This document shows positions 1 through 56,387 of a stretch of DNA of 64,000 nt, piece after piece. Each line of letters begins with the position of its first letter. The first letter of the stretch is position 1. Below the pieces are notes generated by a model, which saw only the letters and a list, made by a program, of their open reading frames with translations, made no database searches and was not told the origin of the DNA. The DNA comes from an uncultured Flavobacteriales bacterium (GTDB lineage Bacteria > Bacteroidota > Bacteroidia > Flavobacteriales_D > Sanyastnellaceae), in the NCBI GenBank assembly GCA_905478325.1, contig CAJQIB010000041.1, positions 1 through 64,000 on the forward strand, read 5' to 3'. A program made the translations under genes and the position numbers.

Positions 1-1319
1 TGAGTCAATTGATCTTCCTCCTTCTTCTGTCTACAGGGATTTTCTTTTTCGTCCGAAGAATTCGGTTCATTCAAAAGAATATTCGCTTGGGGCGTGATGT
101 GGATCTGAGTGACCAAAAGGTCAAGCGATGGAAAACCATGGCACGGGTCGCTTTGGGACAAGGTAAAATGACCGCGCGTCCTGTTGCTGGCATTATGCAC
201 ATCGTGATCTATGTCGGTTTCGTGATCATCAATCTCGAAATGCTCGAAATCCTGCTAGACGGTCTGCTGGGAACGCACCGCATTTTCGCAGAGCCTCTAG
301 GACCGGTATACGATGTTTTGATTGGTTCCTTTGAATGGCTTGCCGCAGGTGTAATCCTCTCTTGTGTAGTCTTCTTCATTCGTCGAAACGGCATGGCCAT
401 TGCCCGGTTGCGCTCACGTGAATTGGCGGGATGGCCTTCCCTCGATGCCAACATCATCTTGGTCGTAGAAGTGCTCCTCATGTTTGCATTTTTGAGCATG
501 AACGCCACTGACGGCATCGCACAACTGCGGGGATTGCCTCATTACGTGAACGCAGGTTCCTTCCCCGTGAGCCAATGGTTGATGCCGTTGTATGCGGGGT
601 TCAGTGATGCTGGTCTTGTTGCGGTGGAACGGGGCATGTGGTGGTTCCACATCGCAGGAGTCTTGGCCTTTTTAGTGTACGTCCCATACTCCAAGCACTT
701 CCACATCATCCTCGCTTTCCCCAACACCTATTTTTCTGATTTGACGCCCGCCGGCGCCATGAACAACATGGAATCCGTCACGCGAGAAGTCAAGCTGATG
801 ATGGACCCATCGGCAGATCCGTATGCCACTCCAGCCGAATCAGCGGAGCCGCCTGCGCCATTCGGCGCCAAGGACGCCACGGACTTGACGTGGAAACAAC
901 TCATGGAATCCTATTCCTGCACAGAATGTGGTCGATGCACTTCCGAGTGTCCTGCCAATCAAACCGGTAAGCTCCTGAGCCCACGGAAGATTATGATGGA
1001 CACCCGCGATCGCATCGAAGAGATTGGCAAGGCGCGTGACGCGAATGGAGGCCAATGGGAATCCGACGGCAAGTCGCTGCTCGGGCACTACATCACTGAA
1101 GAAGAACTTTGGGCCTGCACAAGCTGCCAAGCCTGTGTACAAGCCTGTCCCATCAACATCAGTCCCATGGGCATCATTTTGGACATGCGCCGCAGTTTGA
1201 TCATGGAGGACAGCAAGTCCCCCGAATCGATCACCTCCATGTTCAATAACATCGAAAACAACGGAGCCCCTTGGGCCTTTCCTGCTGAAAGTCGCGGAGA
1301 CTGGACGCAAGATGTTTGA
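1..1319 (+). CDS. HdrE/HdrC-like membrane iron-sulfur electron-transfer protein (first base of start codon outside window)
   Basis: Probably passes electrons between the membrane quinone pool and a cytosolic partner. Hydrophobic helices occupy roughly residues 4-17, 62-88, 106-128, 150-173 and 213-240, a layout like the cytochrome-b-type subunit of heterodisulfide reductase. The soluble C-terminal part carries two 4Fe-4S motifs, CTECGRCTSECP (near residue 307) and CTSCQACVQACP (near residue 373). The window opens with TG AGT CAA TTG in this frame, so the real start is probably an ATG whose A lies one base upstream (MSQLIF...). The next gene overlaps it by 8 bases, fitting a two-subunit complex. 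Physiological donor and acceptor cannot be named from sequence. Confidence 0.8.
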   Translation, partial: SQLIFLLLLSTGIFFFVRRIRFIQKNIRLGRDVDLSDQKVKRWKTMARVALGQGKMTARPVAGIMHIVIYVGFVIINLEMLEILLDGLLGTHRIFAEPLGPVYDVLIGSFEWLAAGVILSCVVFFIRRNGMAIARLRSRELAGWPSLDANIILVVEVLLMFAFLSMNATDGIAQLRGLPHYVNAGSFPVSQWLMPLYAGFSDAGLVAVERGMWWFHIAGVLAFLVYVPYSKHFHIILAFPNTYFSDLTPAGAMNNMESVTREVKLMMDPSADPYATPAESAEPPAPFGAKDATDLTWKQLMESYSCTECGRCTSECPANQTGKLLSPRKIMMDTRDRIEEIGKARDANGGQWESDGKSLLGHYITEEELWACTSCQACVQACPINISPMGIILDMRRSLIMEDSKSPESITSMFNNIENNGAPWAFPAESRGDWTQDV

Positions 1320-2130
1320 AACAGACGAACCGAAGATGACTTCATTCCACATTCCCACCATGGCCGAAATGACCGCCAACGGAAACACACCTGAGGTGCT
1401 TTTCTGGGTTGGTTGCGCCGGCAGCTTTGACGACCGCGCTAAGCGCATCACCAAGGCCATTGCCAAAATATTGAACGCTGCAGGCACCTCATTTGCTGTA
1501 TTGGGCCAAGAAGAGAGCTGCTCCGGTGATCCGGCCAAACGCGCTGGGAACGAATTCTTGTACCAGATGCAAGCCGCGCAGAACATCGCCATATTGAACG
1601 GATATGGAATCAACCGCATCATCACCGGATGCCCACACTGTTTCAATGTCTTGAAGAATGAGTACCCTGAATTGGGGGGCAACTACGAAGTGCAACACCA
1701 CACGCAGTTCATACGAGAGCTCATTGAACAAGGAAAATTGCGCATGGCGGATGGAGGCGTTTTCAAAGGAAAGAAAATCACCTTCCACGACCCTTGCTAT
1801 CTCGGAAGAGGAAACGGAGAATACCTCGCGCCCCGCGAAGTCATTGCTTCTTTGGATGCAGAATTGATTGAAATGCGTCGTTGCAAGCAAAACGGATTGT
1901 GCTGCGGTGCTGGTGGCGCTCAGATGTTCAAAGAAGCAGAAAAAGGAACCGCTGAGGTCAACCATACCCGAACCGAAGACGTCGTCGAATCCAAGGCGGA
2001 AATCGTTGCAACAGGATGCCCTTTTTGCAATACCATGATGACCGATGGTGTGAAACACGCCAACAAAGAAGGCGAAATCATTGTCAAGGACGTAGCAGAG
2101 TTGATCGCTGAAGCAGCGGATTTGTTATAG
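1312..2130 (+). CDS. HdrB-like CCG-domain (Fe-S)-binding protein
   Basis: Likely the catalytic or electron-accepting partner of the preceding membrane subunit. It has the two cysteine-rich CCG-type modules of heterodisulfide reductase subunit B and related reductases: FWVGCAGSFD with CPHCFNVLKNEY in the first half, and LCCGAGGAQMF with TGCPFCNTMM in the second. Length is 272 residues, normal for an HdrB-type chain. The ATG overlaps the upstream stop (ATGTTTGA), indicating translational coupling; a second possible start is Met9. No flavin-binding HdrA gene is visible in the window, so the role in respiration is inferred only from the pair. Confidence 0.8.
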   Translation: MFETDEPKMTSFHIPTMAEMTANGNTPEVLFWVGCAGSFDDRAKRITKAIAKILNAAGTSFAVLGQEESCSGDPAKRAGNEFLYQMQAAQNIAILNGYGINRIITGCPHCFNVLKNEYPELGGNYEVQHHTQFIRELIEQGKLRMADGGVFKGKKITFHDPCYLGRGNGEYLAPREVIASLDAELIEMRRCKQNGLCCGAGGAQMFKEAEKGTAEVNHTRTEDVVESKAEIVATGCPFCNTMMTDGVKHANKEGEIIVKDVAELIAEAADLL

Positions 2131-2163
2131 AACCTCAGCACCCAACGAAATACACAGCGAACC

Positions 2164-2910
2164 ATGTTATTGAAAGGAAAAGTAGCCATTATTACAGGTG
2201 CCTCAAGAGGGATCGGTAAAGCCATTGCGCAAGAGTTCATTCATCAAGGTGCCACCGTCGTTTTTACTTACCGCTCTTCGGTCGAAAAGGCCAACGCACT
2301 TGAAACAGAACTTACCGCAGGCGGAGGAACGGCGAAGGGCTTTCAGTCCGATGCCTCAAAGATGGACGAAGCCGAGCAACTCGTAGCTGCTGTTGTCGAA
2401 ACATTCGGAACGGTTGATGTGGTTGTCAACAATGCGGGTATTACAGAGGACACCCTGCTGATGCGGATGTCAGAAGACCAGTGGGATCGGGTGATTGATG
2501 TCAATCTCAAGTCGTGCTTCGCCCTGACCAAAGCGGTGTTGCGCACCATGCTCAAGGCGCGCGCCGGAAGCATCATCAACGTCAGTTCAGTCGTCGGTGT
2601 TCAAGGCAATGCTGGGCAAGCCAACTATGCTGCTTCGAAGGCGGGCATTCTTGGATTCACCAAATCTGTCGCGTTGGAATTGGGCTCACGAAACATCCGT
2701 TGCAACGCTGTCGCACCAGGCTTCATTGAAACCGAAATGACCGCCGCTCTGGATGAGACCACCGTCCAAGGCTGGCGCGATGCCATTCCTTTAAAACGCG
2801 GCGGACAACCTCAAGATGTCGCCCAATTGTGCACTTTCCTGGCGAGCGACATGAGTTCATACATCACCGGGCAAACCATTTGCATCGATGGTGGCATGAT
2901 CACAGCCTGA
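2164..2910 (+). CDS. fabG: 3-oxoacyl-[acyl-carrier-protein] reductase FabG
   Basis: NADPH-dependent reduction of 3-oxoacyl-ACP in the fatty-acid elongation cycle, cytosolic. The classical SDR features are complete: cofactor motif TGASRGIG at residues 11-18, NNAG at 89-92, catalytic Ser142, Tyr155 and Lys159 (YAASK), and the C-terminal sequence SSYITGQTICIDGGM. Length 248 matches FabG. It starts 33 bases after the Fe-S gene stop and precedes the VWA gene by 9 bases, so co-transcription is likely. Other SDRs share this fold, but the C-terminal signature and length favour FabG. Confidence 0.92.
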   Translation: MLLKGKVAIITGASRGIGKAIAQEFIHQGATVVFTYRSSVEKANALETELTAGGGTAKGFQSDASKMDEAEQLVAAVVETFGTVDVVVNNAGITEDTLLMRMSEDQWDRVIDVNLKSCFALTKAVLRTMLKARAGSIINVSSVVGVQGNAGQANYAASKAGILGFTKSVALELGSRNIRCNAVAPGFIETEMTAALDETTVQGWRDAIPLKRGGQPQDVAQLCTFLASDMSSYITGQTICIDGGMITA

Positions 2911-2919
2911 CCCACCACC

Positions 2920-5121
2920 TTGCTTCCTACCCTCTTCTCTTCTCCCCTTTTTGCCTTCATTGCTCCTAGCCAATGGATTGTCGACGCCTCGGCTTGGCAA
3001 TGGGCGCTCGTATTTGGCCTCCCCATCCTTGCGGCTTGGTGGATGTATGGACGGGGCTCAGGAACAGCCAAGACAGCCACGGGAGGCGGCATGGCTTTAG
3101 GAGGACGGATCGCGCTCGCTCTGCTTCGAACAGCCTTACTGACGACTCTGGCATTTCTACTTCTCGAGCCGTTGATTCGGAACGTCCATTTGGATCGTGA
3201 AGAGCCGATGGCCATCTTGCTCATTGACGAAAGCGCATCCATCGGAAGAACTTCCGATTCCACGATTGTACTGGAGACTTTGCGAAAATGGCCCCTGGAA
3301 TTGGCCGAATCGCTTAGCGAACTTGGGGTCAAGTTGGAAACGTTTGGATTCTCCAACGCATTGAATCCACGTGAACTCAATGCATGGTCCACGGCTCAGT
3401 GGCGCGGGGGTCAAACCAATTTGGATGCGGCTATCAAAGAACTGGAGGCCCGCTTTGAAAACCGCAACATGGCAGGCTTGATCTTAGCCACTGATGGTTT
3501 AATCAATCGAGGCGCTCAACCGGAGTACAGTGCTCATTGGCCCAACACCCCCCTTTACACCATCGGTCTGGGGGACACGACAGTTGTTAGAGACCGTTGG
3601 ATTGACCGCGTCGATCACAATCGAGTGGCTTACCTCGGCAATGCATTCCCGGTTGAAGTGATCGTTCAATCACAAGGGATGTCCAACGAATTGGTCACCG
3701 TTGAAGTATTCTCCGGACAGCAGAGCTTGGCTTCGATGAGCTGGACACCAGCCTCAGACAAGGCCTCTGAACGTTTTGAGTTCATGTTGCCCGCGAATGG
3801 CTTAGGATTGCAACGCTATGAGGTTCGCTGCAGTGTTGCCACAAACGAAGTCAATAGTCAAAATAACCGATCCGCTTTTTACGTGGAAGTTTTGGAAAGC
3901 AAGCGCCAAGTCTTGATTGTCTCCGATGCCCCGCACCCCGATGTCAGTGCCATTCTCTTGGCCCTCCAAGAACAAGACCAAACGGAAGTAAAGGTGCTTC
4001 ACACCTCCAACCTGAAGGATGCCAACGCCTTATTGGAAGCCATTGAGCAAGCCGACGTATTGATCGCACACAATATCCTGGGACAGTCTTTGGGTGCAAT
4101 GACCTGGCCACGGTTGATTCAAATGAACCAAAAGCCATGCTGGTGGATCCTAAGTGATGACGCCTCCCAATCAGCCCTTTTATCCTTTCCCGAGTGGGGC
4201 ATTCGGCTCGAAAACTCAACAGGACTTTCAGAAACACACCGCGTCCGGGCCAATCCCAATTTCGGACTCTTTCAAATTTCTGAAGAACTCGAAACAGCCT
4301 GTCAGCAATGGCCCCCTATGCAGGGTCCTTTTGGCAACATCGAATGGTCTGCGGCTTGGAACCCCCTGTTTTATCGCAAACTCGGCAACTTAGAAACGGA
4401 CCAATCTTGTTGGGCCATTCGCGCACCGTCCAATGACCGTCGGATGGCGGTTACCATTGGACAAGGTTTTTGGAATTGGCGCATGCGCAATTACGTGCAA
4501 AACGAAACCCATGAAGCGTTCAATACGCTCATCCAGAAGCATCTTCAATTTTTGGGATCTGAGAGTAAGAAAGACCGCCTCACCGTGGTTGCTCCGAAAT
4601 CCATTGAGGTCGATCAACGGTTTGAATTGACAGCCGAGGTGTATGACGCAGCGTTGGTGCCAGCCCTAGGAGCAACGATAACACTGGAACTAACATCCGA
4701 AGATGGCGCTACATACCCGATGGCATTCAGTGAGCGCAACCAACGGTATGTACTTGATGCTGGGCGCTTACAAGAGGGAAGCTACACGTGGGTAGCTTCT
4801 TGTCAATTGGACCGCGAACTGTTTGAGCAAACTGGAACGTGCGTCGTTCAGGGGATGCAAGCAGAATTCAGCAGTAAACCTGCAGATCATGCGATCTTGC
4901 TGAGGCTGTCAGAACGGGCAGGCGGATCTTTCTGCGGTGCGCTTGACAGCCTGAGCACAGAGCGTGTAATCACCGCTTTACAGGCAACTGCTGTGCCTTC
5001 AGTCATCTTGCATGAACAAATCCAACTGGACCCCTTGATCGCTTGGGAATGGATCTTATGGTGCCTCATTGCTATGCTGACTGTAGAGTGGGTCGCGCGG
5101 CGACGGGCGTTCGGTTATTGA
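2920..5121 (+). CDS. Membrane-anchored von Willebrand factor A domain protein
   Basis: Two N-terminal membrane helices (about residues 27-43 and 62-83) are followed by a VWA domain with an intact metal-ion-dependent adhesion site: DESAS at 103-107, a downstream QTNLDAAI and ATDGLIN. A third hydrophobic helix is near the C-terminus, so the 600-residue middle is probably periplasmic. The start must be TTG: the fabG stop lies in this frame 9 bases upstream and no ATG occurs before residue 42. The layout resembles large BatA-like or glutamine-amidotransferase-like membrane VWA proteins of Bacteroidota. Partner and substrate are unknown; I infer a protein-interaction role. Confidence 0.75.
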   Translation: MLPTLFSSPLFAFIAPSQWIVDASAWQWALVFGLPILAAWWMYGRGSGTAKTATGGGMALGGRIALALLRTALLTTLAFLLLEPLIRNVHLDREEPMAILLIDESASIGRTSDSTIVLETLRKWPLELAESLSELGVKLETFGFSNALNPRELNAWSTAQWRGGQTNLDAAIKELEARFENRNMAGLILATDGLINRGAQPEYSAHWPNTPLYTIGLGDTTVVRDRWIDRVDHNRVAYLGNAFPVEVIVQSQGMSNELVTVEVFSGQQSLASMSWTPASDKASERFEFMLPANGLGLQRYEVRCSVATNEVNSQNNRSAFYVEVLESKRQVLIVSDAPHPDVSAILLALQEQDQTEVKVLHTSNLKDANALLEAIEQADVLIAHNILGQSLGAMTWPRLIQMNQKPCWWILSDDASQSALLSFPEWGIRLENSTGLSETHRVRANPNFGLFQISEELETACQQWPPMQGPFGNIEWSAAWNPLFYRKLGNLETDQSCWAIRAPSNDRRMAVTIGQGFWNWRMRNYVQNETHEAFNTLIQKHLQFLGSESKKDRLTVVAPKSIEVDQRFELTAEVYDAALVPALGATITLELTSEDGATYPMAFSERNQRYVLDAGRLQEGSYTWVASCQLDRELFEQTGTCVVQGMQAEFSSKPADHAILLRLSERAGGSFCGALDSLSTERVITALQATAVPSVILHEQIQLDPLIAWEWILWCLIAMLTVEWVARRRAFGY

Positions 5122-5191
5122 GTGTTCACAACACGCTCAACTTTATCACACCAAAAAAGCACAAAGCCTTTCGGGTGCAGGACACGCCATG

Positions 5192-5203: not shown

Positions 5204-6034
5204 ATGTCACAACAACCCAACCCAGCTCGCGTCCGCGGTCTCATGATCGCAGCGATTGTACTCGGCCCTATCCTCCTCTTGTGGGGATCCCTCACTGTCA
5301 CGATCCCATCAGGCTATGCAGGCCTGGTCTTTCACACCTTCAGTAACGGTGTAGACACCACTGAAACGCCTTTGGGCAGTGGTTTTCACATCAAAGCACC
5401 TTGGAATAAGGTCTATGAATACGAGATCCGTCAAAAGGAGCGCATGGAGCGCATCGAAGTCCTCAGTTCCAATTTGCTTAAAATTGAAATGGACTTGACC
5501 GTATTCTATCAACCCCAGTTTGAAAGCTTGGGATTGCTCGAAATTCAGCGTGGTCGGAGTTACGAGGAAAAAGTAGTTGTCCCAGCTATGCGTTCCGTTG
5601 CGCGAGAAGTCATTGCGAAATATTTACCTGAAGAGTTCAACACAACGCGCCGTGATGAGATTCAAACTGAAATTGACGCCCGCATGCGGGAGAAACTTTC
5701 TGAGAACTACCTGCGACTGAACGACGTATTGATTCGCAACATCCGTCTACCGAAAACGTTGGAAGCAGCCATTGAACGAAAACTTCAACAAGAACAAGAG
5801 TCTTTGGAGTATGAGTTCCGTTTGGAAAAAGCCTCGAAAGAAGCCGATCGCATGCGCATTGAAGCCGAAGGCATTCGGGATTACCAAGCCATTGTTTCAA
5901 AAGGCATCAGCCAAGAACTCTTGAAGTGGAAAGGCATCGAAGCGACATCAGCGCTTGCGAACAGCCCGAACACCAAGGTGGTTGTGATTGGTTCAGCTAA
6001 AGACGGCTTGCCGTTGATTCTCGGAGACAATTGA
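5204..6034 (+). CDS. Prohibitin/SPFH-domain membrane protein
   Basis: A membrane scaffold of the stomatin/prohibitin/flotillin superfamily. One N-terminal hydrophobic helix (residues 13-31) is followed by the SPFH core, where VTIPSGYAGLVFHTF and GSGFHIKAPW are typical of prohibitin, and a long charged helical region (about residues 155-225) likely to form coiled coils. In other bacteria and mitochondria such proteins form rings around FtsH-type proteases; an ftsH lies 6 kb away but not in the same operon. The ATG follows a -7-like element by exactly four bases. Ends before a strong terminator. Confidence 0.88.
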   Translation: MSQQPNPARVRGLMIAAIVLGPILLLWGSLTVTIPSGYAGLVFHTFSNGVDTTETPLGSGFHIKAPWNKVYEYEIRQKERMERIEVLSSNLLKIEMDLTVFYQPQFESLGLLEIQRGRSYEEKVVVPAMRSVAREVIAKYLPEEFNTTRRDEIQTEIDARMREKLSENYLRLNDVLIRNIRLPKTLEAAIERKLQQEQESLEYEFRLEKASKEADRMRIEAEGIRDYQAIVSKGISQELLKWKGIEATSALANSPNTKVVVIGSAKDGLPLILGDN

Positions 6035-6070
6035 TTCCGATTGCGTTGAGAAACGCAAAATAGGCCCACA

Positions 6071-6098
6071 AAAAAACCCGCTGTTGAGCGGGTTTTTT
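6071..6098. terminator. Bidirectional intrinsic terminator
   Basis: A 12-bp perfect stem (AAAAAACCCGCT, loop GTTG, AGCGGGTTTTTT) with T-runs on both strands, between the convergent prohibitin and rpmB genes; it can serve both. Confidence 0.93.
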
Positions 6099-6132
6099 TT
6101 GTTCCAACAAATTCAGACGACTGTCTAGATCT

Positions 6133-6375
6133 TCATCGTTCGTTGAACAGTCCTTTCTCTTTTGATTGTGCAATCGCTGCAACCAATCCCAACTTGCTGA
6201 TGGTTCGCATCGCAGCTGCTGAAACGCGTAACGTTACAAACGTTCCGTCTGTCTCGTTGAAAAAACGCTTCTTTTGGAGGTTTGGATAGAACGTGCGTTT
6301 CGTTCTCCGCTTGGAGTGCGATACGTTATTTCCGACCATAACCTTTTTTCCGGTGAGTTGACAAATGCGGCTCAT
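6133..6375 (-). CDS. rpmB: 50S ribosomal protein L28
   Basis: An 80-residue structural protein of the large ribosomal subunit. It begins [21 protein letters not shown], the characteristic L28 N-terminus, followed by a basic region and a C-terminal [10 protein letters not shown] helix. The open frame extends 17 codons further upstream, but L28 proteins start at this Met. The rpmG and DUF4295 genes that often follow rpmB in Bacteroidota are not downstream here; a terminator comes 34 bases later. It is 60 bases downstream of cinA on the same strand. Confidence 0.95.
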
Positions 6376-6435
6376 AGCTTCACTTTTAGAGAGCGCAAAG
6401 AAACGAAAGAAAAGCCACTCATCCAACCTTTACCG

Positions 6436-7704
6436 TCAATCGACAGCGCTTTTATATTCCTTCAATTTCCTCAAGAGCCACGCTTGTCCTTCCAAACGCG
6501 TTTTTTCGATGTTGCGAATCCGATTTTGTCCAAAATGCAGCAAGCGAGCCTCCACGCCATTTGGCCCTGCTATGGCAATCCAAATCGTCCCAACCGGAAT
6601 GTGTTCACTGCCTCCTCCCGGACCTGCAATTCCGGATGTTGCCAAGGCAAAATCAGCTCCAGTAGTACGCAACGCTCCTTCCGCCATTTCCTTCACGACA
6701 GACTCACTTACCGCACCATGCGCTTCCAACGTATCCGGAGAAACTCCCAATAGGTTGATTTTTACCTGATTGACGTAAGACACGACCCCACCCACAAAAC
6801 AAGCACTGGAACCTGGAACGGCGGTAATACTTGCCGCTATCGCCCCCCCAGTACACGATTCGGCAACAGCAAAGGTCATCCCTTCATCCGTAAACGTCCG
6901 AACCACGGCTTCTGCGAGTGACTCTCCCTCCACGTCCGTAATAATCCAATCACCACATTGCAATTTGAAATCTGAGAGCTCCTGCTCAACCAAGCGGACC
7001 CCTTCGTCTCGATTTTCAGATACGGCACTCAACCGGACCCGAACTTGTCCCGGGGCGGGTAAATACGCGATCGAAACACCGCGGTTCACTAAACCGACCT
7101 CCCATGAGGCCACATGTTGACTCAAAAAACTCTCTCCTATTCCCTGCGTTAAAACGGTTCGATGATACCGGGTAGGCAATGAAAACCGAGCAACAAGTCT
7201 TGGAATCACCTCATCCACCATGATTCCTTTCATTTCATACGGCACCCCGGGCATGCTCACGACCACTTGATCCGTACCCTCCACTGTAAACCACATTCCT
7301 TGGGCTGTCCCCTGTGGGTTCGGCAAAACTTCGCACGTATCAGGGAGCAGTGCCTGATCAACATTTGATGGCAACATCGGAAAACCTCGACTGGAAAACC
7401 AATGTGTGATGTCCGCTAGTACCTCGTCATTTTGAACCAAAGGCGCCTTAAAGTAGGTTGAAAGAACTTGTTTCGTCCTGTCATCAACCGTGGGGCCAAG
7501 CCCTCCTGTAATCAGCACCAAGCCTTTGGATTCAAGCGCCAGATCCAACGCTGCAACCAAAGCCGCGGGCTCGTCCGACAGTGTCGTAATCCGTTCAACC
7601 GCAATGCCTGCAAGCGCCAACTTCTCTCCCATCCAAGCCGAATTGGTATCAATCGTTTGACCCAATAACAATTCATCTCCGACCGTAATGATTTCAGCAA
7701 GCAT
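6436..7704 (-). CDS. cinA: CinA family nicotinamide-nucleotide amidohydrolase
   Basis: Two-domain protein of 422 residues. The N-terminal MoaB/MogA-like half contains VGDELLLGQTIDTNSAW and GGLGPTVDD; the C-terminal half is the NMN/NAMN deamidase domain with AESCTGGAIAASIT and an ATSGIAGPGG segment. Family members hydrolyse ADP-ribose and/or recycle NMN to nicotinate mononucleotide in the cytosol. The start is fixed by a promoter just upstream: TTG at 7738-7736, 19-bp spacer, TAATTTTG, then four bases and the ATG. Co-directional with rpmB. Confidence 0.93.
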   Translation of the reverse strand: MLAEIITVGDELLLGQTIDTNSAWMGEKLALAGIAVERITTLSDEPAALVAALDLALESKGLVLITGGLGPTVDDRTKQVLSTYFKAPLVQNDEVLADITHWFSSRGFPMLPSNVDQALLPDTCEVLPNPQGTAQGMWFTVEGTDQVVVSMPGVPYEMKGIMVDEVIPRLVARFSLPTRYHRTVLTQGIGESFLSQHVASWEVGLVNRGVSIAYLPAPGQVRVRLSAVSENRDEGVRLVEQELSDFKLQCGDWIITDVEGESLAEAVVRTFTDEGMTFAVAESCTGGAIAASITAVPGSSACFVGGVVSYVNQVKINLLGVSPDTLEAHGAVSESVVKEMAEGALRTTGADFALATSGIAGPGGGSEHIPVGTIWIAIAGPNGVEARLLHFGQNRIRNIEKTRLEGQAWLLRKLKEYKSAVD

Positions 7705-46656: not shown

Positions 46657-49600
46657 TTATTCACATGAAGTTCCGAAGCTCGCCAAGAAAGCAAGTAAAT
46701 CCGGAGTTCCAATTTGACCGTCATTGTTCAAATCACCAGGACAGTCTGAACCGGTATCGAAGACACATGAACCGTCATCCGTTGTTGCTGCAGCATCATA
46801 GTTCTCAGCTTGCTCGTAGATACAACCCCCTGAAATGGCGGTCATACAATAGCTATCATCTGAACCATTGAAAGGATTGTACTCAACATACATTGGATCT
46901 GCACAACCAGCACAAAGATCACAGCTATTGAAGCAAGCTCCTATTGTGCTCATGTTACCTGATACGTCAATGACACGGTTTCCACCGTTTCCACAATCAC
47001 CGACACTTTCATCGGCACCCCACGCATTGCCGTTGATGAACTTGTACTCATACGATCCTTGTTGCAATTGCAACACGACCTGGTACACGCCATAACCGGC
47101 ATAAGGAACCATCAAAGAAGAAGGATCCCAGCCTTGGAAGCTTCCAGCCATGTGGACACCTTCATCGGCAACCATTTCATTGGACATGTTGATTCGGAAC
47201 GTTACCAAGTAGGTACAACTTCCGTCGTCAACGTTGGCTCCAGCTTCGTAGTTCTGCGCTGAAGCATCCATGCAACCATTGTAGTTACAATCACCAGCAT
47301 CCGTAGCCAATTCATTGTAGTTGTCTGCATCCATATCCTGACAACCGGCTACCTCTTGGCAATCCAAAACGGAGTCACCGTCTGTATCCGTGTAATCACA
47401 AGCAACACTTAGATCACAGAAATCCGTGAAGCCACAAGCCATCGGATCACCACAACCCATGTTGAATGAAGACACCGGAGCAAGCCACAAATAGCTCGCA
47501 CCGATTACAGGCACAGCTGTTTGCCAAATGCCGTTGTTTTCACTTAAGATGGCCGTTCCTCCACTGAGTGGATTCACAAATCGTACCAAATCACCACAGA
47601 AAGAGATGTCCGCAATGCCCGCCAATCCGACGAGGTCTGCAAGCAATCCACCCGTCTGGTCTGTAATATTTGAGAAATGCATCGGTCCATCAGTACCGTC
47701 ACCGAGGAAGAAACCGTTCAAGGCTACGTTTGGATTCACTCCACCTGCAGCTTCGCAATCCGCTGCGAACGGCTCATTTTCAGTCCCGGTCAATGTCACA
47801 CCAACCAACCACAACGATTCAGCGCCTGTAACAATGGTCGTAGACTCATTGTAGTCGCAGCTGCCATCGTCATCCGTAGCAGCGCCGTTGTAGTTGCAAG
47901 CAATGGCGCTTGTGCAACCATAGACAACCAACGAGTTGCCTTCGCAATCAAATCCTTCTTCAGCGTAGGTACAACTTCCGTCATCCGATGTAGCCAAAGC
48001 GTTGTAGTTACACGCCGCTTCGTCATTGCAACCCGGGCCAAGAGGCACCAATTCCAAGCTTGTCGCCAATCGCGGTGCCGTGTAGTCTTGAATCTGATCA
48101 ATCCAGAACATCGCCTCATCGATACCCATTGTAGGGTTCAATGTCAATTGCGTTGCAGCAATACTGGTTCCGTTCGCTTCATCCACCATCTGTGTTGTAG
48201 CGACATCCCACCACTGCCAAGGAGCAGAGTCGAAAGGCTCTGTTGGCGCTCCGTCTACGTAGTTATTCATAACAGGGTACAATCCATCCCATCCCTGGTT
48301 GCCCAATGCAGCAGCCGGATCGGCCAGACCGATTTCAGCAAATGCCGCATTGTTATTGGTGGCATAACCATTGATTTCAGAGTGGATATCATAAGCACCT
48401 GAAACTTCAACAACGGGCTCACTAGTCGTTGGAACGACCAATACACCACTAGTATAAGGAGCGAATTGATCATGGGGAGCATGGAAACTAACCATCGGCA
48501 TATCGCCTTCATCCAACCAATTCAAATCACCCATCGCACCGCCCATGTTCATCTGGAAATTGAAATCGCTGGAGTAATCCACGTGATTCGCCATGCACAA
48601 CTGGAACCCTCCACTCGATGCTGGAGCATACGTGTCAGTCGTCGCGTCTGGGTTTCCATGAATGCTTTCAATCACCATTGGAATGAACGAGCCATCTCCC
48701 GGGTTGTACCAAAACTTGGTAATCGGATTGCCTACATCATCCAAAATGATGTCATTGTAATCGGAGATGGTCGAAGAAGCCAATGTGATGTAGCCTCCTG
48801 TTCCTTCACCAAACATGGCGATTTTGTCACCAGAAGCTCCCCAAGGGTTGCCGTCTTCAGCAATAGACTTGCGGAAGTAACGGACCGCTGTGCGGCTATC
48901 CTGCACTCCACGGTAAGCCGCTTGGATTAATTGCAACGTTCGCTCTTCTTGTGTTCCAGCTAAAGGATTCCATCCCAAACGGTAATCGACAGAGGCAACG
49001 ACATAGCCCATGCGTGCAAAGCGAGAGCAAATTTCAACGGCACTGCTGTCTGTACGCGTACCGACGGCACTTCCATTCACATACTGAGGCAAAAAGTTTC
49101 CGGTGTGGAAGTAAAGAATGACCGGACGATCTGTCTCCGAATCTCCTTCAGGTGTATACACGTCCATCAGCAAATCTTCAGCTGCTGGCGGCATGCCCTG
49201 CAAAGCTGGAATAACCGTGATGTTTTCACCATAAACAACTCCAGACTCCACATTCACGGCATCGAAAACCTCATCGATGTAGCGAACGCCTCCTTCAATG
49301 GTCGTCGTCGTAACCGCTCCCATTGCCAAGCCCATCCGAGGTGTATTGTAATCGACAATCTGCTCAATCCAGCTCATGGCCTCTTCTTCTCCCATCGTTG
49401 GGTTCAAAGTCAGCTGAGTAGCCAAAATGTTCGTGCCGTTTGCTTCGTCATACGCTGCAACAGTCGCTTGATCCCACCACTGCCAAGGAGAGCTATCATA
49501 TGGCTCTGTTGGAACGCCGTCAACGTACGAGTTTTGGACGGGGAATAACCCATCAAAACCACCGTTGGCTGGTGAACCCGCATCGTCCAACCCTGCGTCC

Positions 49601-50613
49601 GCAAAGACGGCGTTATTGTTCGTAGCGTATCCATTGATTTCTTCATGAATATCTTGAGCTCCTGACACCTCAACAACAGGCTCATTGGTCGTAGGAACGA
49701 TCAAAACTGCTGTTTCATAAGGAGCGAATGGATCATGAGGACACTGGAAGCTTACCATCGGTACATCTCCTTCGTCCAACCAATTCAAATCACCCAAGGC
49801 TCCACCCGCGTTCATTTGGAAGCTCACATCAGAACTGTATCCAACATGATTCGCTGCACACAACTGAAAACCACCAGAAGAAGCTGGAGCATACGTATCA
49901 GTTGTTGCATCCGGATTTCCGTGAATGCTCTCGATAATCATCGGGATGTATGACCCATCTCCTGGATTGTACCAGAATTTGGTGATCGGGCTGCCCGCAT
50001 CATCCAAAATGATGTCATTGTAATTCGCAATGGTCGAAGAAGCTAAGGTGATGTACCCGCCTGTTCCGTCGCCAATCATTCCAATCTTCGTTCCATCAAT
50101 GCCATAAGGATCGCCATCTTCCGCTTCTCCTTTACGGAAGAAACGAACAGCCGTTCGGCTATCCTGTACACCACGGTACGCGGCCTGAATCAACTGCAAC
50201 GTTCGCTCTTCTTGCGTTCCCGCTAAAGGATTCCATCCGAGGCGATAATCCACAGATGCCACGACATAGCCCATTTTGGCATAGCGTGTGCACATCTCAA
50301 CAGCGAAATTATCTGTCTTCGTTCCCAGCGCACCTCCATTAATGAAGGGAGGTAAAAAGTTACCTGTGTGGAAGAATAGCAACAAAGGACGTTCCGTCTC
50401 GGTATCCCCCGTTGGTTCATACAAATCCAACATCAAAGGTTGCATCGCAGGCGGTTGACCTTGCAATGCAGGAATGACGGTAATGTTTTGGCCATAGTTG
50501 ATGTCCGACGTGACCGTCACATCATCAAATACCTCATCGAGGTAGCGTGTCTGGGCGTCCAATTGAAGGACAGCAAGGCACGTCAAAAGCGTACCGAAAA
50601 GTAATTTTTTCAT
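46657..50613 (-). CDS. 1318-residue secreted protein: tandem hydrolase-fold repeats without nucleophile, Cys-rich repeats, CBM-like and dockerin-like modules
   Basis: Signal peptide 1-20. Residues 23-435 and 443-856 are two very similar copies of an alpha/beta-hydrolase-like module (each with FFHTGNF or YFHTGNF, SVDYRLGWNPLAGTQEERTL, GVQDSRTAVR). Where GxSxG should give the nucleophile elbow, copies have GDGTGG (181-186) and GEGTGG (602-607): the serine is replaced by glycine. Residues about 862-1135 hold repeats of NYxxxAxxDDGSC type. Residues about 1136-1220 resemble a glycogen-binding CBM48/AMPK-type module (GVHMAGSFQGWDPS ... YEYKFING). The end, DLNNDGQIGTPDLLAFLASF, is dockerin-like. Start Met50613 is preferred because it opens the signal peptide. 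It is 123 bases downstream of the TonB receptor gene. Confidence 0.85.
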   Translation of the reverse strand: MKKLLFGTLLTCLAVLQLDAQTRYLDEVFDDVTVTSDINYGQNITVIPALQGQPPAMQPLMLDLYEPTGDTETERPLLLFFHTGNFLPPFINGGALGTKTDNFAVEMCTRYAKMGYVVASVDYRLGWNPLAGTQEERTLQLIQAAYRGVQDSRTAVRFFRKGEAEDGDPYGIDGTKIGMIGDGTGGYITLASSTIANYNDIILDDAGSPITKFWYNPGDGSYIPMIIESIHGNPDATTDTYAPASSGGFQLCAANHVGYSSDVSFQMNAGGALGDLNWLDEGDVPMVSFQCPHDPFAPYETAVLIVPTTNEPVVEVSGAQDIHEEINGYATNNNAVFADAGLDDAGSPANGGFDGLFPVQNSYVDGVPTEPYDSSPWQWWDQATVAAYDEANGTNILATQLTLNPTMGEEEAMSWIEQIVDYNTPRMGLAMGAVTTTTIEGGVRYIDEVFDAVNVESGVVYGENITVIPALQGMPPAAEDLLMDVYTPEGDSETDRPVILYFHTGNFLPQYVNGSAVGTRTDSSAVEICSRFARMGYVVASVDYRLGWNPLAGTQEERTLQLIQAAYRGVQDSRTAVRYFRKSIAEDGNPWGASGDKIAMFGEGTGGYITLASSTISDYNDIILDDVGNPITKFWYNPGDGSFIPMVIESIHGNPDATTDTYAPASSGGFQLCMANHVDYSSDFNFQMNMGGAMGDLNWLDEGDMPMVSFHAPHDQFAPYTSGVLVVPTTSEPVVEVSGAYDIHSEINGYATNNNAAFAEIGLADPAAALGNQGWDGLYPVMNNYVDGAPTEPFDSAPWQWWDVATTQMVDEANGTSIAATQLTLNPTMGIDEAMFWIDQIQDYTAPRLATSLELVPLGPGCNDEAACNYNALATSDDGSCTYAEEGFDCEGNSLVVYGCTSAIACNYNGAATDDDGSCDYNESTTIVTGAESLWLVGVTLTGTENEPFAADCEAAGGVNPNVALNGFFLGDGTDGPMHFSNITDQTGGLLADLVGLAGIADISFCGDLVRFVNPLSGGTAILSENNGIWQTAVPVIGASYLWLAPVSSFNMGCGDPMACGFTDFCDLSVACDYTDTDGDSVLDCQEVAGCQDMDADNYNELATDAGDCNYNGCMDASAQNYEAGANVDDGSCTYLVTFRINMSNEMVADEGVHMAGSFQGWDPSSLMVPYAGYGVYQVVLQLQQGSYEYKFINGNAWGADESVGDCGNGGNRVIDVSGNMSTIGACFNSCDLCAGCADPMYVEYNPFNGSDDSYCMTAISGGCIYEQAENYDAAATTDDGSCVFDTGSDCPGDLNNDGQIGTPDLLAFLASFGTSCE
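48046..49287 (-). repeat. Second copy of tandem hydrolase-like module
   Basis: Encodes residues 443-856; DNA is strongly similar to 49309-50547, for example around GTACCA-AA-CTTGGT-ATCGG positions near 48700 and 49970. Probably a domain duplication within the gene. Confidence 0.85.
49309..50547 (-). repeat. First copy of tandem hydrolase-like module
   Basis: Encodes residues 23-435, paired with the copy at 48046-49287; protein identity is high over blocks such as GTQEERTLQLIQAAYRGVQD. Confidence 0.85.
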
Positions 50614-50736: not shown

Positions 50737-53649
50737 TCAGCGCTTATTGGATGCCTTGTCACTGAAGTCATAAATAAGACTCGCATAGAGCATTCGTCCT
50801 ACGTACGGACCTCCATACGCCTCTATGTGCAAGTTGTTCAACACATTAGACCCCCCAAGCTTGATGGTCGTGTTCAGTGAAGGGATCACCGCATTGACCT
50901 GTGCATCCAACAGGTTAAACGTTGGCACAGCGCCTGTGAACTGCGGAGAGCCCTCGAAGATGAACCCCTCGACCCATTTGTAGTTCGCACTAAAGCCCCA
51001 TGTCATATAACGAAGCAAGTAGGTTCTTAATTTTAATTTTAGGCTACGTGCACTGATGCTGAGATTGTACTTGTGCCTGGGGGTATTGAATGCCGGAATG
51101 ATGGGGTCGTCTTCATCCGTTTTCACCAACTCATTCCAACTGTAGTTGCCCGCAACCATGAAGTTATTATCGATGTAGTAATTGATCCCGATTGCAGCCC
51201 CTTGCGTTTGTACTTCGCTTATTGAGTTGGCAGCATACCGGTAGACATCGACGGCACGAGGAGATTGTTCATTGCCAATAAATAAAGCGTCTAGCCCGAT
51301 GTTATAGCCAATGAAGTGCTGGTAGATGCTGAAATAGTAACTTCCATCGACGTACACTTTTTCTCCCAGAGTGGTCCGATATCCCACTTCAAACGTACGC
51401 ACCTGCTCAGGACGGATTGGAGCGATGTCAAAATAGACCAGCGTGTCCCGGTTCAATCCATACTGCCCTGCTGAGGCATCCGCACTGTTTCGGAAATCTA
51501 TAAAACTTCCAATTGTAATCAAGCTATCAGCCCCATTCAAGTTTCCTACAAGTGTTGCCGGCCCTACATCCAAATACAGGTATTGATCTGCCAATGTTGG
51601 ATTCCGTAAAGCGGAACTAAAGCTCATGCGCAAATAGTCCTTTTCTCGCGGAGAGAACACCAATGAAGCTGCAGGCGATACGACCCACTTAAAATTTTGG
51701 TTCTTGTCAGCGCGTACCGTGCCCGTCACAATCATCCGGTCTTCCAAGAAACGCTTCTTGACACCCGAGTAGAAGCCTATCTCCTGGTTCACAATCTTTT
51801 CTGTTGTGTCGCTGAAAATGGTTCCATCACTGTACGGGGTGTACCGTCTGAAATTGCCTCCCACTCGAACCTCCTCCAAACCGCTCGGATTAAAGATATA
51901 TTCACCATGAACGTGGCTTAAGCTCGATTGATCAAAGAAGCGAGTCCCCCCCTCTCCTTCATTGTTCTTTGCTGACACCAGCTGATTGAAAGCGGCATCA
52001 AATGCGGCAGAACCGGGTTGCAGATAGCCCACTGGGTTCTCAGAAACATCCTGCAAGCCAGCGTAGCCTGCGTTTGCCCAAGCTTCTACTTGTGAGTGCC
52101 ATGAATACAAAGAATCCTGCATTTGGCTATACCAAACAGAAATTGGCTTTCCTTCCCAGACTGTCCTGTCCTTATTGGTAGGGTCTTCCATACCTTGCCC
52201 ATCTTCGTAGTAAAAAGAAATGGGGTCCGTGGTCATGTCTAAGATGCCTTGAGGGTAGCTCCCACCAATGACCGGCGCTATGCTATCAGTCCAGTACTTA
52301 TAGTACACTTTCGAATACTGATAATCGTCTCGTGTCGTTTCCTGAAGTTTCAAAGCCGTGGCATACGGGTCATATGAATTGCCCGCATCCTCGCTCGTGC
52401 GGTATGCTCGGACAAACCACTTGCCCGGTTTGCGCAATTCCAACTTGTGCTGGTAAAATTCAATGTCCCTCAAGCTGAAGCGGTTGTCTCCTTGGTACAC
52501 TGTGGTGCCAAAGCCTGAATTGAACCCGTATATCAATTCCGGACTCTCATACGTCTGTTCTGGACGCAATCGCCAATGAGCAGCCGTGCTCACTTTTAGG
52601 TTTTCTGTATTGTAATCCACCAAGTCCTTCTCTCGGTAGCCCGTTCGGAAGAAATTCCCCAAACCGCGCGCATTGGAGCTTCCGTCTCCTGAGAAATCAT
52701 AAACAGGCTTGTATTCGTCCCCATAGATATTCACTGCGTCAAAGCGTCCAGGGTTGGAGGCATCCACTTGTGAACCGTCCACAGGGTCGTAGTTCGTGGC
52801 TTCCCAATCATAGGCTGAAAATCGAAAAGCATTCACCTTAAGTCCAAAGACGGGGTCCCCGTCTGCGTTCATCGTGTAGTCCGCATAGCGGAAGGCGATC
52901 TCTTCCAAATTGCGCTCACCAATTTTAAAGGACGCGTTGACTCCTGGAAATTGAAAGGGAGACTTCGTTTCCATGGATACCACCCCGTTGAACGCGCCTG
53001 GCCCATAAAAGGCTGAACTCGCTCCCGCAACGATGTCCACGCTTTTGACATCCAAATCCGATGCTCCAAGGAAGTTACCCAACGAGAAATTCAACCCAGG
53101 ACTTTGGTTGTCGATGCCGTCAATGAGTTGCAACGATCTGACAGGAGAGGTCGAATTGAACCCCCGCGTATTGATAATCTTGAAGCCCAAACTCGCTGAA
53201 GTCACATCAACTCCTTTTAAGTTTCCTAGACCTTCATAAAAGGACCCCGATGGCGCTTCCTTAATGGCGATTACATCCATTGACTCAACGGTCAGCGGCG
53301 CCTGCTTCTGCTTTTCACTGATGCGTTCACCGATGACCTCCGCCGCTTCGATCAAGACTTGATCGGGTTGCAAGCGCACCGTGATCACATCAGAAGGACC
53401 TTGCACGTTGACTCGTTCAACAGCATAGCCGATAAAACTCACTTGTAGAACCGCAGGATAACCGGCTATTGGCAATAAAAACTGCCCGTCAAAATCTGTA
53501 GTGACCCCATTGATTGTTCCTTCCAAAATCACATTTGCTGAAAAAACAGGCTCTCCCGACTCTCCATCCACGACCCTTCCTCTCACGGTTGTTTGTGCCA
53601 TCGCGGCAACAGAACACACTAAAAAAAAGCTTAGAACAATGAATCTCAT
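50737..53649 (-). CDS. TonB-dependent outer-membrane receptor
   Basis: 970-residue receptor: signal peptide (MRFIVLSFFLVCSVAAMAQ), an N-terminal carboxypeptidase-D-like regulatory domain (TVRGRVVDGESGEPVFSANVILEG), a plug (GIDNQSPGLNFSLGNFLGASDLDVKSVDIV ... FYGPGAFNGVVSMETKSPF) and a long beta-barrel with aromatic-rich strands. No SusD gene is beside it. The adjacent downstream gene encodes a secreted Cys-rich protein, so a shared substrate is possible but unproven. Substrate unknown. The barrel's last strand is followed by a short KASNKR tail. Confidence 0.92.
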   Translation of the reverse strand: MRFIVLSFFLVCSVAAMAQTTVRGRVVDGESGEPVFSANVILEGTINGVTTDFDGQFLLPIAGYPAVLQVSFIGYAVERVNVQGPSDVITVRLQPDQVLIEAAEVIGERISEKQKQAPLTVESMDVIAIKEAPSGSFYEGLGNLKGVDVTSASLGFKIINTRGFNSTSPVRSLQLIDGIDNQSPGLNFSLGNFLGASDLDVKSVDIVAGASSAFYGPGAFNGVVSMETKSPFQFPGVNASFKIGERNLEEIAFRYADYTMNADGDPVFGLKVNAFRFSAYDWEATNYDPVDGSQVDASNPGRFDAVNIYGDEYKPVYDFSGDGSSNARGLGNFFRTGYREKDLVDYNTENLKVSTAAHWRLRPEQTYESPELIYGFNSGFGTTVYQGDNRFSLRDIEFYQHKLELRKPGKWFVRAYRTSEDAGNSYDPYATALKLQETTRDDYQYSKVYYKYWTDSIAPVIGGSYPQGILDMTTDPISFYYEDGQGMEDPTNKDRTVWEGKPISVWYSQMQDSLYSWHSQVEAWANAGYAGLQDVSENPVGYLQPGSAAFDAAFNQLVSAKNNEGEGGTRFFDQSSLSHVHGEYIFNPSGLEEVRVGGNFRRYTPYSDGTIFSDTTEKIVNQEIGFYSGVKKRFLEDRMIVTGTVRADKNQNFKWVVSPAASLVFSPREKDYLRMSFSSALRNPTLADQYLYLDVGPATLVGNLNGADSLITIGSFIDFRNSADASAGQYGLNRDTLVYFDIAPIRPEQVRTFEVGYRTTLGEKVYVDGSYYFSIYQHFIGYNIGLDALFIGNEQSPRAVDVYRYAANSISEVQTQGAAIGINYYIDNNFMVAGNYSWNELVKTDEDDPIIPAFNTPRHKYNLSISARSLKLKLRTYLLRYMTWGFSANYKWVEGFIFEGSPQFTGAVPTFNLLDAQVNAVIPSLNTTIKLGGSNVLNNLHIEAYGGPYVGRMLYASLIYDFSDKASNKR

Positions 53650-53718: not shown

Positions 53719-53970
53719 TTATTCAGAAGCCGCGTCTTGGGCTTCGCCTAAAACCGCGATTCGGATGCGGCCTTGAAACTCCACGACATCACCTGGCCGT
53801 AATTTTCGCCGCTTCCGAAATTCGAGTTCACCGTTCACGCGAATCAACCCTTGAACGACATGGGCCTTCGCATCCCCTCCCGTAACCGCATTGCCTGTAG
53901 CTTTCAACAATTGAAGCAAATCAATATACGGGGTTGTCAAGGTAAATGACTCTTCCTTCCAATCGGTCAT
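53719..53970 (-). CDS. S4-domain RNA-binding protein
   Basis: 83 residues with an S4 fold: the segment TPYIDLLQLLKATGNAVTGGDAK is the RNA-binding helical part and GLIRVNGELEFRKRRKLRPGDVV its beta half. Stand-alone S4 proteins of this size resemble the YaaA/RlbA type. Its ATG overlaps the E1 stop by 4 bases (ATGA), so it is coupled to the E1 gene despite no metabolic link. Target RNA unknown. Confidence 0.82.
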   Translation of the reverse strand: MTDWKEESFTLTTPYIDLLQLLKATGNAVTGGDAKAHVVQGLIRVNGELEFRKRRKLRPGDVVEFQGRIRIAVLGEAQDAASE

Positions 53971-56387
53971 GACAGCGAATTCAATGAAGGATAACGTACT
54001 GGGTCGGATTCGTGCATGAGGGCATATACCGCTTCAACAATGTCTTCTTGATTGGGCTTCGCATAATAATCGCCATCCGATCCATATGGAGGTAAATGCG
54101 GTTGCGCCGAGATGGTGGTCGGAGAACCGTCCAAGAGCTGCCAGGCATTTTGTTGACGAAGAATCTGGTCCAATAGATAGGCCGATGCTCCACCCGGAAC
54201 ATCTTCGTCCACAATCACCAAACGATTCGTCTTGGCCACTGAGGCACTGCATACTCCTGTCAAATCAAACGGAAGCAGTGTCCGAGCGTCAACCAGCTCA
54301 ATTTCAACGCCCAAGCTAGAAAGTGTCTCAGACGCCGAAGAGGCCACATGAAACGTTGACCCATAAGAGACTACCGTTACATCCGTTCCAGGACGAACCA
54401 CTTCAGCAATTCCCAATGGGATTCGGAAATCGCCTAGGTTCTTTGGCAGGGGCTCCTTGCTGCGATACCCATTGAGGCATTCAATCACCAAGGCCGGCTC
54501 TTCGGCCTCGAGCAGGGTATTGTACATCCCCGCAGCCTCCGTCATGTTTCTAGGAACGCAAATGTGCATACCTCGGAGCGAATTGATGATCGCTCCCATC
54601 GGAGAACCGCTGTGCCAAATTCCCTCCAGGCGATGACCGCGAGTTCGGATGATGACCGGAGCTTTTTGCCCACCGGCCGATCTGTATCGCACAGTCGCTG
54701 CATCGTCTCGCAAAATTTGCAGCGCATAATAGATGTAATCCAAGTATTGGATTTCAGCGATGGGGCGGAAGCCTCGCATGGACAAACCAATCCCTTGGCC
54801 TGCGATGGTGCATTCTCGAATTCCTGTATCCGAAACACGATGTGCCCCGAATTTATCTTGCATGCCCTCCATCACTTGATTCACCCCTCCAATCTTCCCG
54901 GTGTCTTCACCAAATGTGATCAATTCAGGTTTGCGCGCAAACAAAACTTCAAAATTTTGCTGCAAAACCTGACGGCCGTCCACCCATTCTGCATGGGCAT
55001 CAATTTCAACGGCCACAGGTGCAACTGCCAACGCTGAATCCTCGCCATCGCTCATCAAATGATTGCTGTAACGGTTGAGGTTGACCTCTGCATAAGCGGA
55101 TGACCAGCGCTCAAGAGATGCTCTTTCCTGCGTTTTTTGACCAATGGTTCGATACAGCAATTGGCGGGCTGCGGTATGCAGCGCTGCTCGCCCGGGATGG
55201 ATGATTTCTTTCAAGCTAGGGACTGTTGGACCCTCGGGTCCTTCAACAGCCGCGACAAGCTGAATGAGTTCTTCCAATTCAGCGTCGATGGGCAGACGAA
55301 ATTCAGCCCACGCTTCTTTTTGAACTTGGCGAACCTCCTTTTTCGTTTCTTTTCGAATGCCATCCAACTGGTCGGCCGTTGCAGCTCCTTCTAGGATCAA
55401 AAACAATCCAAACTGTTCGATGCAATCGTATTCCTTCGCCCAAGCCATGCGTTCTGCCGACTTGTAGCGCTCATGCGAACCCGAGGTGCTATGGCCCTGA
55501 GGCTGCGTCACTTCTTCAACATGAACAAGAACAGGAACATGATCCGCACGACACTGTTGTTCTGCCGCTTCATACGTGGCGACCAAAGCAGGATAGTCCC
55601 ATCCATTGACTGTGTAAATCACCATGCCGTTCGTCCCCGATTGAATCTCCATGCCACGCAACGCTTCCGAGATGGACGCTTTCGTCGTTTGGTATTCTTT
55701 GGGCACACTGATGCCATAACCATCATCCCAAACATTCATCAGCATCGGAACCTGCAAGACGCACGCCGCATTCATGGTTTCCCAAAACGGACCTTCCGAA
55801 GTACTGGCATCACCGATTGTCCCAACGGCTATTTCATTGCCTCCTTCGGTGAAATTGGATTTCAGTTTCGTGACTTCGGGTAAGGAGCGGTATAATTTTG
55901 AAGCCTGTGCCAGACCGAGTAACCGAGGCATTTGCCCCGCCGTTGGACTGATGTCAGCAGAGCTGTTGAACTGTGTCGTTTGATCCATCCACGATCCATC
56001 ATCATTCAAGTACCGGGTCGCAAAATGGCCTCCCATTTGACGTCCAGCGGATGAAGGCTCATGCGCTGGGTCTGTGTCTGCATAGAGCGCCGCGAAAAAC
56101 TGCTTAACGGTTAGTAACCCCTGCGCCATCATCAAGGTCTGATCACGGTAATATCCGGAACGCCAATCTCCTGGCTTCAATACTTTCGACAAGGCTATCT
56201 GTGCCAACTCTTTGCCATCACCGAAAATCCCAAACTTTGCCTTGCCTCCAAGCACCTCCTTTCTCCCCAGTAGCGAAGCTTCTCGACTCATGCACGCCAA
56301 GCGATAATCCGCTAGCAATTGCTGCCGAAAGTCAGCGGCTGTAACCTTGATATCTGCCATTGAAGTGGGTGAGTCCGGGCTATTCAT
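53967..56387 (-). CDS. 2-oxoacid dehydrogenase E1, alpha and beta subunits fused
   Basis: Thiamine-diphosphate enzyme (806 residues) that decarboxylates a 2-oxo acid. The alpha part (about 1-370) holds GTIGDASTSEGPFWETMNAA (Mg/ThDP motif region) and QPQGHSTSGSHERYKSAERM; the beta part (about 470-806) has ITFGEDTGKIGGVNQVMEG and EIQYLDYIYYALQILRDD, with the GHRLEGIWHSGSP and LVIVDEDVPGGASAYLLD segments of the beta subunit. Which substrate (pyruvate or branched-chain keto acids) is not settled. lpdA (E3) is 3 kb away; an E2 gene is not visible. -7-like TAAATTCG, CGCC, ATG. Confidence 0.88.
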   Translation of the reverse strand: MNSPDSPTSMADIKVTAADFRQQLLADYRLACMSREASLLGRKEVLGGKAKFGIFGDGKELAQIALSKVLKPGDWRSGYYRDQTLMMAQGLLTVKQFFAALYADTDPAHEPSSAGRQMGGHFATRYLNDDGSWMDQTTQFNSSADISPTAGQMPRLLGLAQASKLYRSLPEVTKLKSNFTEGGNEIAVGTIGDASTSEGPFWETMNAACVLQVPMLMNVWDDGYGISVPKEYQTTKASISEALRGMEIQSGTNGMVIYTVNGWDYPALVATYEAAEQQCRADHVPVLVHVEEVTQPQGHSTSGSHERYKSAERMAWAKEYDCIEQFGLFLILEGAATADQLDGIRKETKKEVRQVQKEAWAEFRLPIDAELEELIQLVAAVEGPEGPTVPSLKEIIHPGRAALHTAARQLLYRTIGQKTQERASLERWSSAYAEVNLNRYSNHLMSDGEDSALAVAPVAVEIDAHAEWVDGRQVLQQNFEVLFARKPELITFGEDTGKIGGVNQVMEGMQDKFGAHRVSDTGIRECTIAGQGIGLSMRGFRPIAEIQYLDYIYYALQILRDDAATVRYRSAGGQKAPVIIRTRGHRLEGIWHSGSPMGAIINSLRGMHICVPRNMTEAAGMYNTLLEAEEPALVIECLNGYRSKEPLPKNLGDFRIPLGIAEVVRPGTDVTVVSYGSTFHVASSASETLSSLGVEIELVDARTLLPFDLTGVCSASVAKTNRLVIVDEDVPGGASAYLLDQILRQQNAWQLLDGSPTTISAQPHLPPYGSDGDYYAKPNQEDIVEAVYALMHESDPVRYPSLNSLS

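Follow-up and report, generated by a model that had tools for sequence, protein, structure and literature searches.

A gene on the minus strand of the window, which is the whole stretch of 64,000 nucleotides of DNA that was analysed, encodes two tandem descendants of a BD-FAE-like esterase. Both keep the esterase fold and the acid Asp of the catalytic triad, and both have lost the nucleophile Ser and the base His. We consider it probable that this protein is exported, is non-catalytic and acts as a lid-like, ligand-capturing partner to the product of the gene directly upstream, a TonB-dependent receptor. The features used below are as follows.

46657..50613, minus strand: whole gene, stop codon included, for a putatively exported tandem pseudo-esterase of 1318 aa (open frame and translation)
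50554..50613, minus strand: signal peptide-like N-terminus, residues 1-20 (MKKLLFGTLLTCLAVLQLDA; read from the sequence)
49309..50547, minus strand: pseudo-esterase domain 1, residues 23-435 (PF20434; model with pLDDT 91; Z 24 to Est2)
48046..49287, minus strand: pseudo-esterase domain 2, residues 443-856 (75% identity with domain 1; PF20434)
50056..50073, minus strand: elbow GDGTGG of domain 1, residues 181-186, with Gly in the nucleophile position
48793..48810, minus strand: elbow GEGTGG of domain 2, residues 602-607, with Gly in the nucleophile position
49717..49743, minus strand: domain 1 motif CPHDPFAPY, which contains the conserved acid Asp (alignment)
48454..48480, minus strand: domain 2 motif APHDQFAPY, which contains the conserved acid Asp (alignment)
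46765..48033, minus strand: region with at least five Cys-rich repeats of the GC...DDGSC type, residues 861-1283 (Cys conserved in relatives)
47002..47157, minus strand: CBM48/AMPK-beta glycogen-binding-like module, residues 1153-1204 (PF16561 and Foldseek)
46660..46746, minus strand: dockerin-like C-terminal end (CPGDLNNDGQIGTPDLLAFLASFGTSCE; motif)
50737..53649, minus strand: TonB-dependent receptor of 970 aa (Pfam PF00593, PF07715 and PF13715)

The frame opens with an ATG at 50613 on the minus strand and its stop codon ends at 46657. The extent and the length of 1318 residues given in a preliminary description of this DNA are borne out by the open frame, and the strand had not been stated there. 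As that description had also claimed, the protein contains two hydrolase-fold copies (residues 23-435 and 443-856, 75% identical), each of which keeps an HTGNF segment (residues 82-86 and 503-507). In a Pfam search the protein matched BD-FAE (PF20434) with 55.7 bits against a cut-off of 26.8, as well as Abhydrolase_3, in two stretches each. The structure of domain 1, whose prediction had been proposed, was modelled from 50 sequences with a mean pLDDT of 91. The best structural match of the model was Est2 of Thermogutta terrifontis (Z 24.3, rmsd 2.4 A, 235 residues), and BD-FAE 6TKX/6XYC gave a Z of 22.4; with Z values of 22-24, the predicted model confirmed the alpha/beta-hydrolase fold of the BD-FAE superfamily. 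The window domain is about 410 residues long as against 260-290 in the BD-FAE and Est2 enzymes, and hence carries sizeable extra segments. Promoter and terminator scans gave results near chance.

The catalytic residues of BD-FAE are Ser128, Asp237 and His269 (PMC8165983). We aligned 16 GxSxG paralogues with 60 sampled members of the family of the window protein, the Gly members. The nucleophile Ser was present in all 16 paralogues and in none of the 60 Gly members, all of which had Gly, and the acid Asp was present throughout (16/16 and 60/60). The base His was found in 16/16 paralogues and 0/60 Gly members, an assignment that is based on the alignment of a divergent region and not on superposed coordinates. 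The Gly stands third in the elbow, aligned to the nucleophile Ser of the paralogues, with Thr one place later; GDGTGG and GEGTGG have thus both lost the Ser, as had been noticed. Furthermore, Glu, Gln or Asp usually precedes the nucleophile position in the Gly group, where the Ser group usually has Val, and the oxyanion HGG of the Ser group is replaced by HTG. In the C-terminal part of the Gly domains a PW.W motif is near-invariant, and the GxSxG paralogues have a GHVPH-type His motif there. Among the domain copies that match the profile over most of its length, 93 of 94 (79 genome loci) read GxG[TS]GGY; these loci were found with patterns from Gly members and are a biased sample, a restriction that the protein search of 100 genomes described below lacked. 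Judging from these alignments, catalysis has very probably been lost in the Gly family.

A tree of 133 domains, built by a quick method with a midpoint root, separated the Ser group from the rest by a branch with support 100. All non-Ser rows formed one Gly group except the divergent L044, which has a very long branch, and the tandem copies were nested deep inside the Gly group. The Ser and the His were lost before the family spread. As read from this tree, the Ser-to-Gly replacement is one ancestral change that preceded the duplication, and with the duplication nested in the Gly group both copies inherited a single event. Two parallel, independent losses of the Ser, which the preliminary description had assumed, were rejected on the basis of the tree. 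The family has at least 531 confirmed matches in public genomes.

Several other genes of this kind were observed. The gene of L044 is the same as that in L195 (G066:C4:50000-60500, 5315-6724), which keeps HGGSF yet has Gly at the nucleophile position, lacks the GHVPH motif and is receptor-linked; it either branched off early or has diverged strongly. The GxSxG paralogues form a separate clade with the full triad, and one of them is present in the window's own genome. A second Gly-type paralogue in the same genome (L197; G000:C32:1000-14000, 5853-7439, minus strand) is 529 aa long, ends in a T9SS-like tail and has no receptor next to it. L140 has two adjacent Gly-type genes in opposite orientation, at 1089-2369 (minus strand) and 3879-5159 (plus strand), neither of which has a receptor directly upstream.

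On the same strand, 123 nt separate the end of the TonB-dependent receptor gene from the start of the pseudo-esterase, and the genome contains no second receptor of this kind. The preliminary description had dealt with the pseudo-esterase and overlooked that it is the second gene of a conserved pair. Counting distinct members for which 600 nt or more of upstream sequence was available, the receptor was found directly upstream, in the same orientation, for 89 of 115 Gly members and for none of the 16 Ser members. Of the 26 Gly members without this adjacency, about 17 belong to a single paralogue group; its proteins have ~530 aa, carry a T9SS-like tail and lack a neighbouring receptor, which indicates that the pseudo-esterase domain can serve elsewhere. 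The neighbouring frames were inspected for five of the 26 scored exceptions (L169, L180, L186, L197 and L202): in L169 the receptor is directly downstream of the Gly-type gene, and L202 was scored as an exception yet has the receptor, the match having been missed through the overlap limit. Genome G099 (L186 and L204) contains Gly-type copies, one match having three stops, and no receptor in it reached the cut-off that was applied.

The adjacency involves one orthologous receptor and extends across families to distant genomes. A set of 29 distant loci was drawn from further branches of the same family, from different families of the order and from a second family of the class. The receptor was present in 27 of them, a DUF1573 gene in 5 and an E1-like dehydrogenase gene in 13, some of the loci being too short to show the latter. 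Five genomes from the second family of the class carry the receptor (920-1057 bits) together with GxGTGGY and a T9SS-like tail, and the Saprospiraceae MAGs L165 and L167 also carry the receptor beside a Gly-type gene. When protein searches of 100 relatives were combined by hand, 76 genomes had both genes, none had the receptor alone, two had the Gly-type hydrolase alone (the fragmented G014, and G099) and 22 had neither; these genomes are not independent, for which reason the p-values of a Fisher test were set aside, and several pairs are split by contig ends. In the window a fused E1 dehydrogenase-like gene (53967-56387) lies upstream of the receptor on the same strand, and the nearness of the E1-like gene to the receptor reflects either a functional link or old gene order.

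The single-domain members of the family mostly end in T9SS type A-like tails (YPNP...G.Y, judged by eye). Together with the signal peptide-like start, these tails suggest that the pseudo-esterase is exported to the cell surface. In window-type proteins the tail is replaced by the Cys-rich repeats, the CBM48-like module and the dockerin-like end. The Cys-rich repeats reported previously are borne out: residues 861-1283 contain five or more of them. The sequence evidence for the CBM48-like module is marginal (PF16561, 27.2 bits against a cut-off of 26.8), and the module also gave Foldseek matches to the AMPK-beta glycogen-binding domain (1z0n, 1z0m), for which the query was a low-confidence model of the C-terminal region (mean pLDDT 58) of which this part alone was used. 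As for the dockerin-like end, the motif is present, but no Pfam dockerin match was obtained up to E = 1 in the 1318-aa protein, and the motif is not peculiar to this gene: DL[ND]xDG-x5-DLL occurs at 46694-46734 of the window and at 18 other places in the genome, with 0 occurrences of the reversed-pattern control. The C-terminus of the window protein carries this motif at the spot that a T9SS-like tail occupies in many relatives, and the motif may be another export or anchoring signal. The order of modules had been thought to have no described parallel. However, the same order recurs across a clade comprising the source genus and neighbouring genera: the C-terminal modules are common to 15 tandem relatives and two single-domain ones, and the Cys-rich and dockerin-like end is also found on several single-domain members in the neighbouring genera. 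Since the modules and the motif recur so widely, the unusual order was dropped as the main point.

The position of the gene directly behind the receptor gene in several families suggests that the pseudo-esterase captures a ligand for the receptor instead of cutting it. The pseudo-esterase would be exported to the cell surface and would bind its ligand, uncut, in or near the old active-site pocket; the bound ligand would then be handed to the TonB-dependent receptor, as in SusCD or BtuBG, and the tandem duplication would have produced a double-headed binder. The physical partnership with the receptor and the presence of a ligand are what we infer from the gene data. In a phmmer search against solved structures, the receptor matched by its N-terminal domain only, and hence no ligand could be guessed from it; a glucan is one possibility, hinted at by the CBM48-like module. 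Several observations speak against the capture of a ligand for the receptor. The T9SS-tailed paralogue group (about 17 of the 26 exceptions) has no receptor neighbour, and the window protein, unlike SusD and BtuG, is not evidently a lipoprotein. The E1-like gene is near in 13 of the 29 distant loci, and the adjacency could be partly passive gene order. In addition, the assignment of the His hinges on the alignment of a divergent region.

In another reading the protein, much like a neuroligin, binds other proteins or surfaces as an adhesin or scaffold, without any part in import, and the receptor gene lies alongside because the two are regulated together or because the gene order is old. In neuroligins and related adhesion proteins that resemble cholinesterases, an esterase fold without a working nucleophile is used for binding; these proteins, however, come from an unrelated animal lineage, serve protein-protein adhesion and are not known to have a transporter partner. 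The tandem copies, the Cys-rich repeats and the CBM48-like and dockerin-like modules would suit surface display, and both the receptor-less paralogue group and the frequent nearness of the E1-like gene accord with such a role. Nevertheless, the receptor adjacency outlasts that of other neighbours (27 of the 29 distant loci, against 13 and 5) and reaches another family of the class, and the receptor alone was seen in 0 of 100 genomes. We regard an adhesin or scaffold as rather unlikely, though it is the strongest of the alternatives.

It was also considered whether the protein is still an enzyme, with Thr or another residue as the nucleophile or with a non-covalent mechanism. The Asp and the surroundings of the pocket are conserved, and the residue after the Gly is Thr or Ser in most members; however, it is Ala in some, and the base His is absent in 60/60. 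Furthermore, the invariant columns of the order-wide alignment contained no Ser, Cys or His, which makes Thr-based or other covalent chemistry very unlikely. The Thr-based variant raised in the preliminary description does not hold, because the Thr is the residue after the nucleophile position, with Ser or Ala in its place elsewhere, and the base His is absent. Catalysis by Thr or an alternative Ser was rejected on the triad counts and the lack of an invariant Ser, Cys or His, and we give any remaining enzymatic role little weight.

We estimated dN/dS between the window protein and its relatives for both pseudo-esterase domains and for the C-terminal region, and obtained 0.02-0.08 where dS was estimable, several pairs being saturated. 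The domain is intact and under strong purifying selection, and these values together with the loss of the triad support the non-catalytic role under selection proposed earlier. A functionless, decaying esterase remnant, to which the loss of two triad residues and a handful of copies elsewhere that are broken or contain stops (G099) might point, is contradicted by these dN/dS values, by the intact frames and by a core conserved in several families, and we consider it hardly credible.

The capture of a ligand for the receptor can be compared with known systems. BD-FAE (PF20434; 6TKX/6XYC; PMC8165983) and Est2 (5AO9, 7BFR) have the fold in common with the window protein (Z 22-24 over 235-242 residues), and the window domains keep the acid Asp and exceed the Pfam cut-off. 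They differ from these enzymes in having Gly for the nucleophile Ser, no base His, and HTGN in place of HGG in the oxyanion segment. The Pfam label PF20434, that of an esterase, would consequently predict hydrolase activity wrongly for the family at several hundred places in public genomes, and the intact GxSxG paralogues offer a ready comparison for the transition from enzyme to binder.

Systems that combine a receptor with a surface binder are already known, and their mark, conserved adjacency with a putatively exported partner, is found here for 89/115 Gly members and 0/16 Ser members. In the open-access literature we found nothing relevant on a pseudo-esterase or receptor-hydrolase pair, nor a partner derived from an esterase. 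SusCD glycan importers consist of a TonB-dependent transporter and a surface ligand-binding protein (PMC11658791). The window locus likewise pairs a TonB-dependent receptor with a putative surface binder, but it has no SusD: the gene directly downstream of the receptor is the pseudo-esterase, which had no SusD match in Pfam, and this partner has an esterase fold and is not an evident lipoprotein. The receptor itself scored far below the SusC/RagA cut-off of TIGR04056 (109.6 against 368.25 bits), in the N-terminal part only. In BtuB-BtuG vitamin B12 importers, the lid of the receptor is a dedicated surface binder that does not belong to the SusD type (PMC10404256). The window locus resembles them in combining a receptor with a proposed dedicated binder that is not SusD; BtuG is a beta-propeller lipoprotein, whereas the window type is a pseudo-esterase whose tail is T9SS-like or dockerin-like. 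More tentatively, the pair may represent a new class of importer of the Bacteroidota outer membrane, in which a dead-esterase lid on a TonB-dependent receptor, binding the ancestral type of substrate, was recruited once and kept across Flavobacteriales families and Saprospiraceae. If the pair is an importer, it points to a nutrient in which aquatic Flavobacteriales and Saprospiraceae invest, and an enzyme-derived lid would join the SusD and BtuG types.
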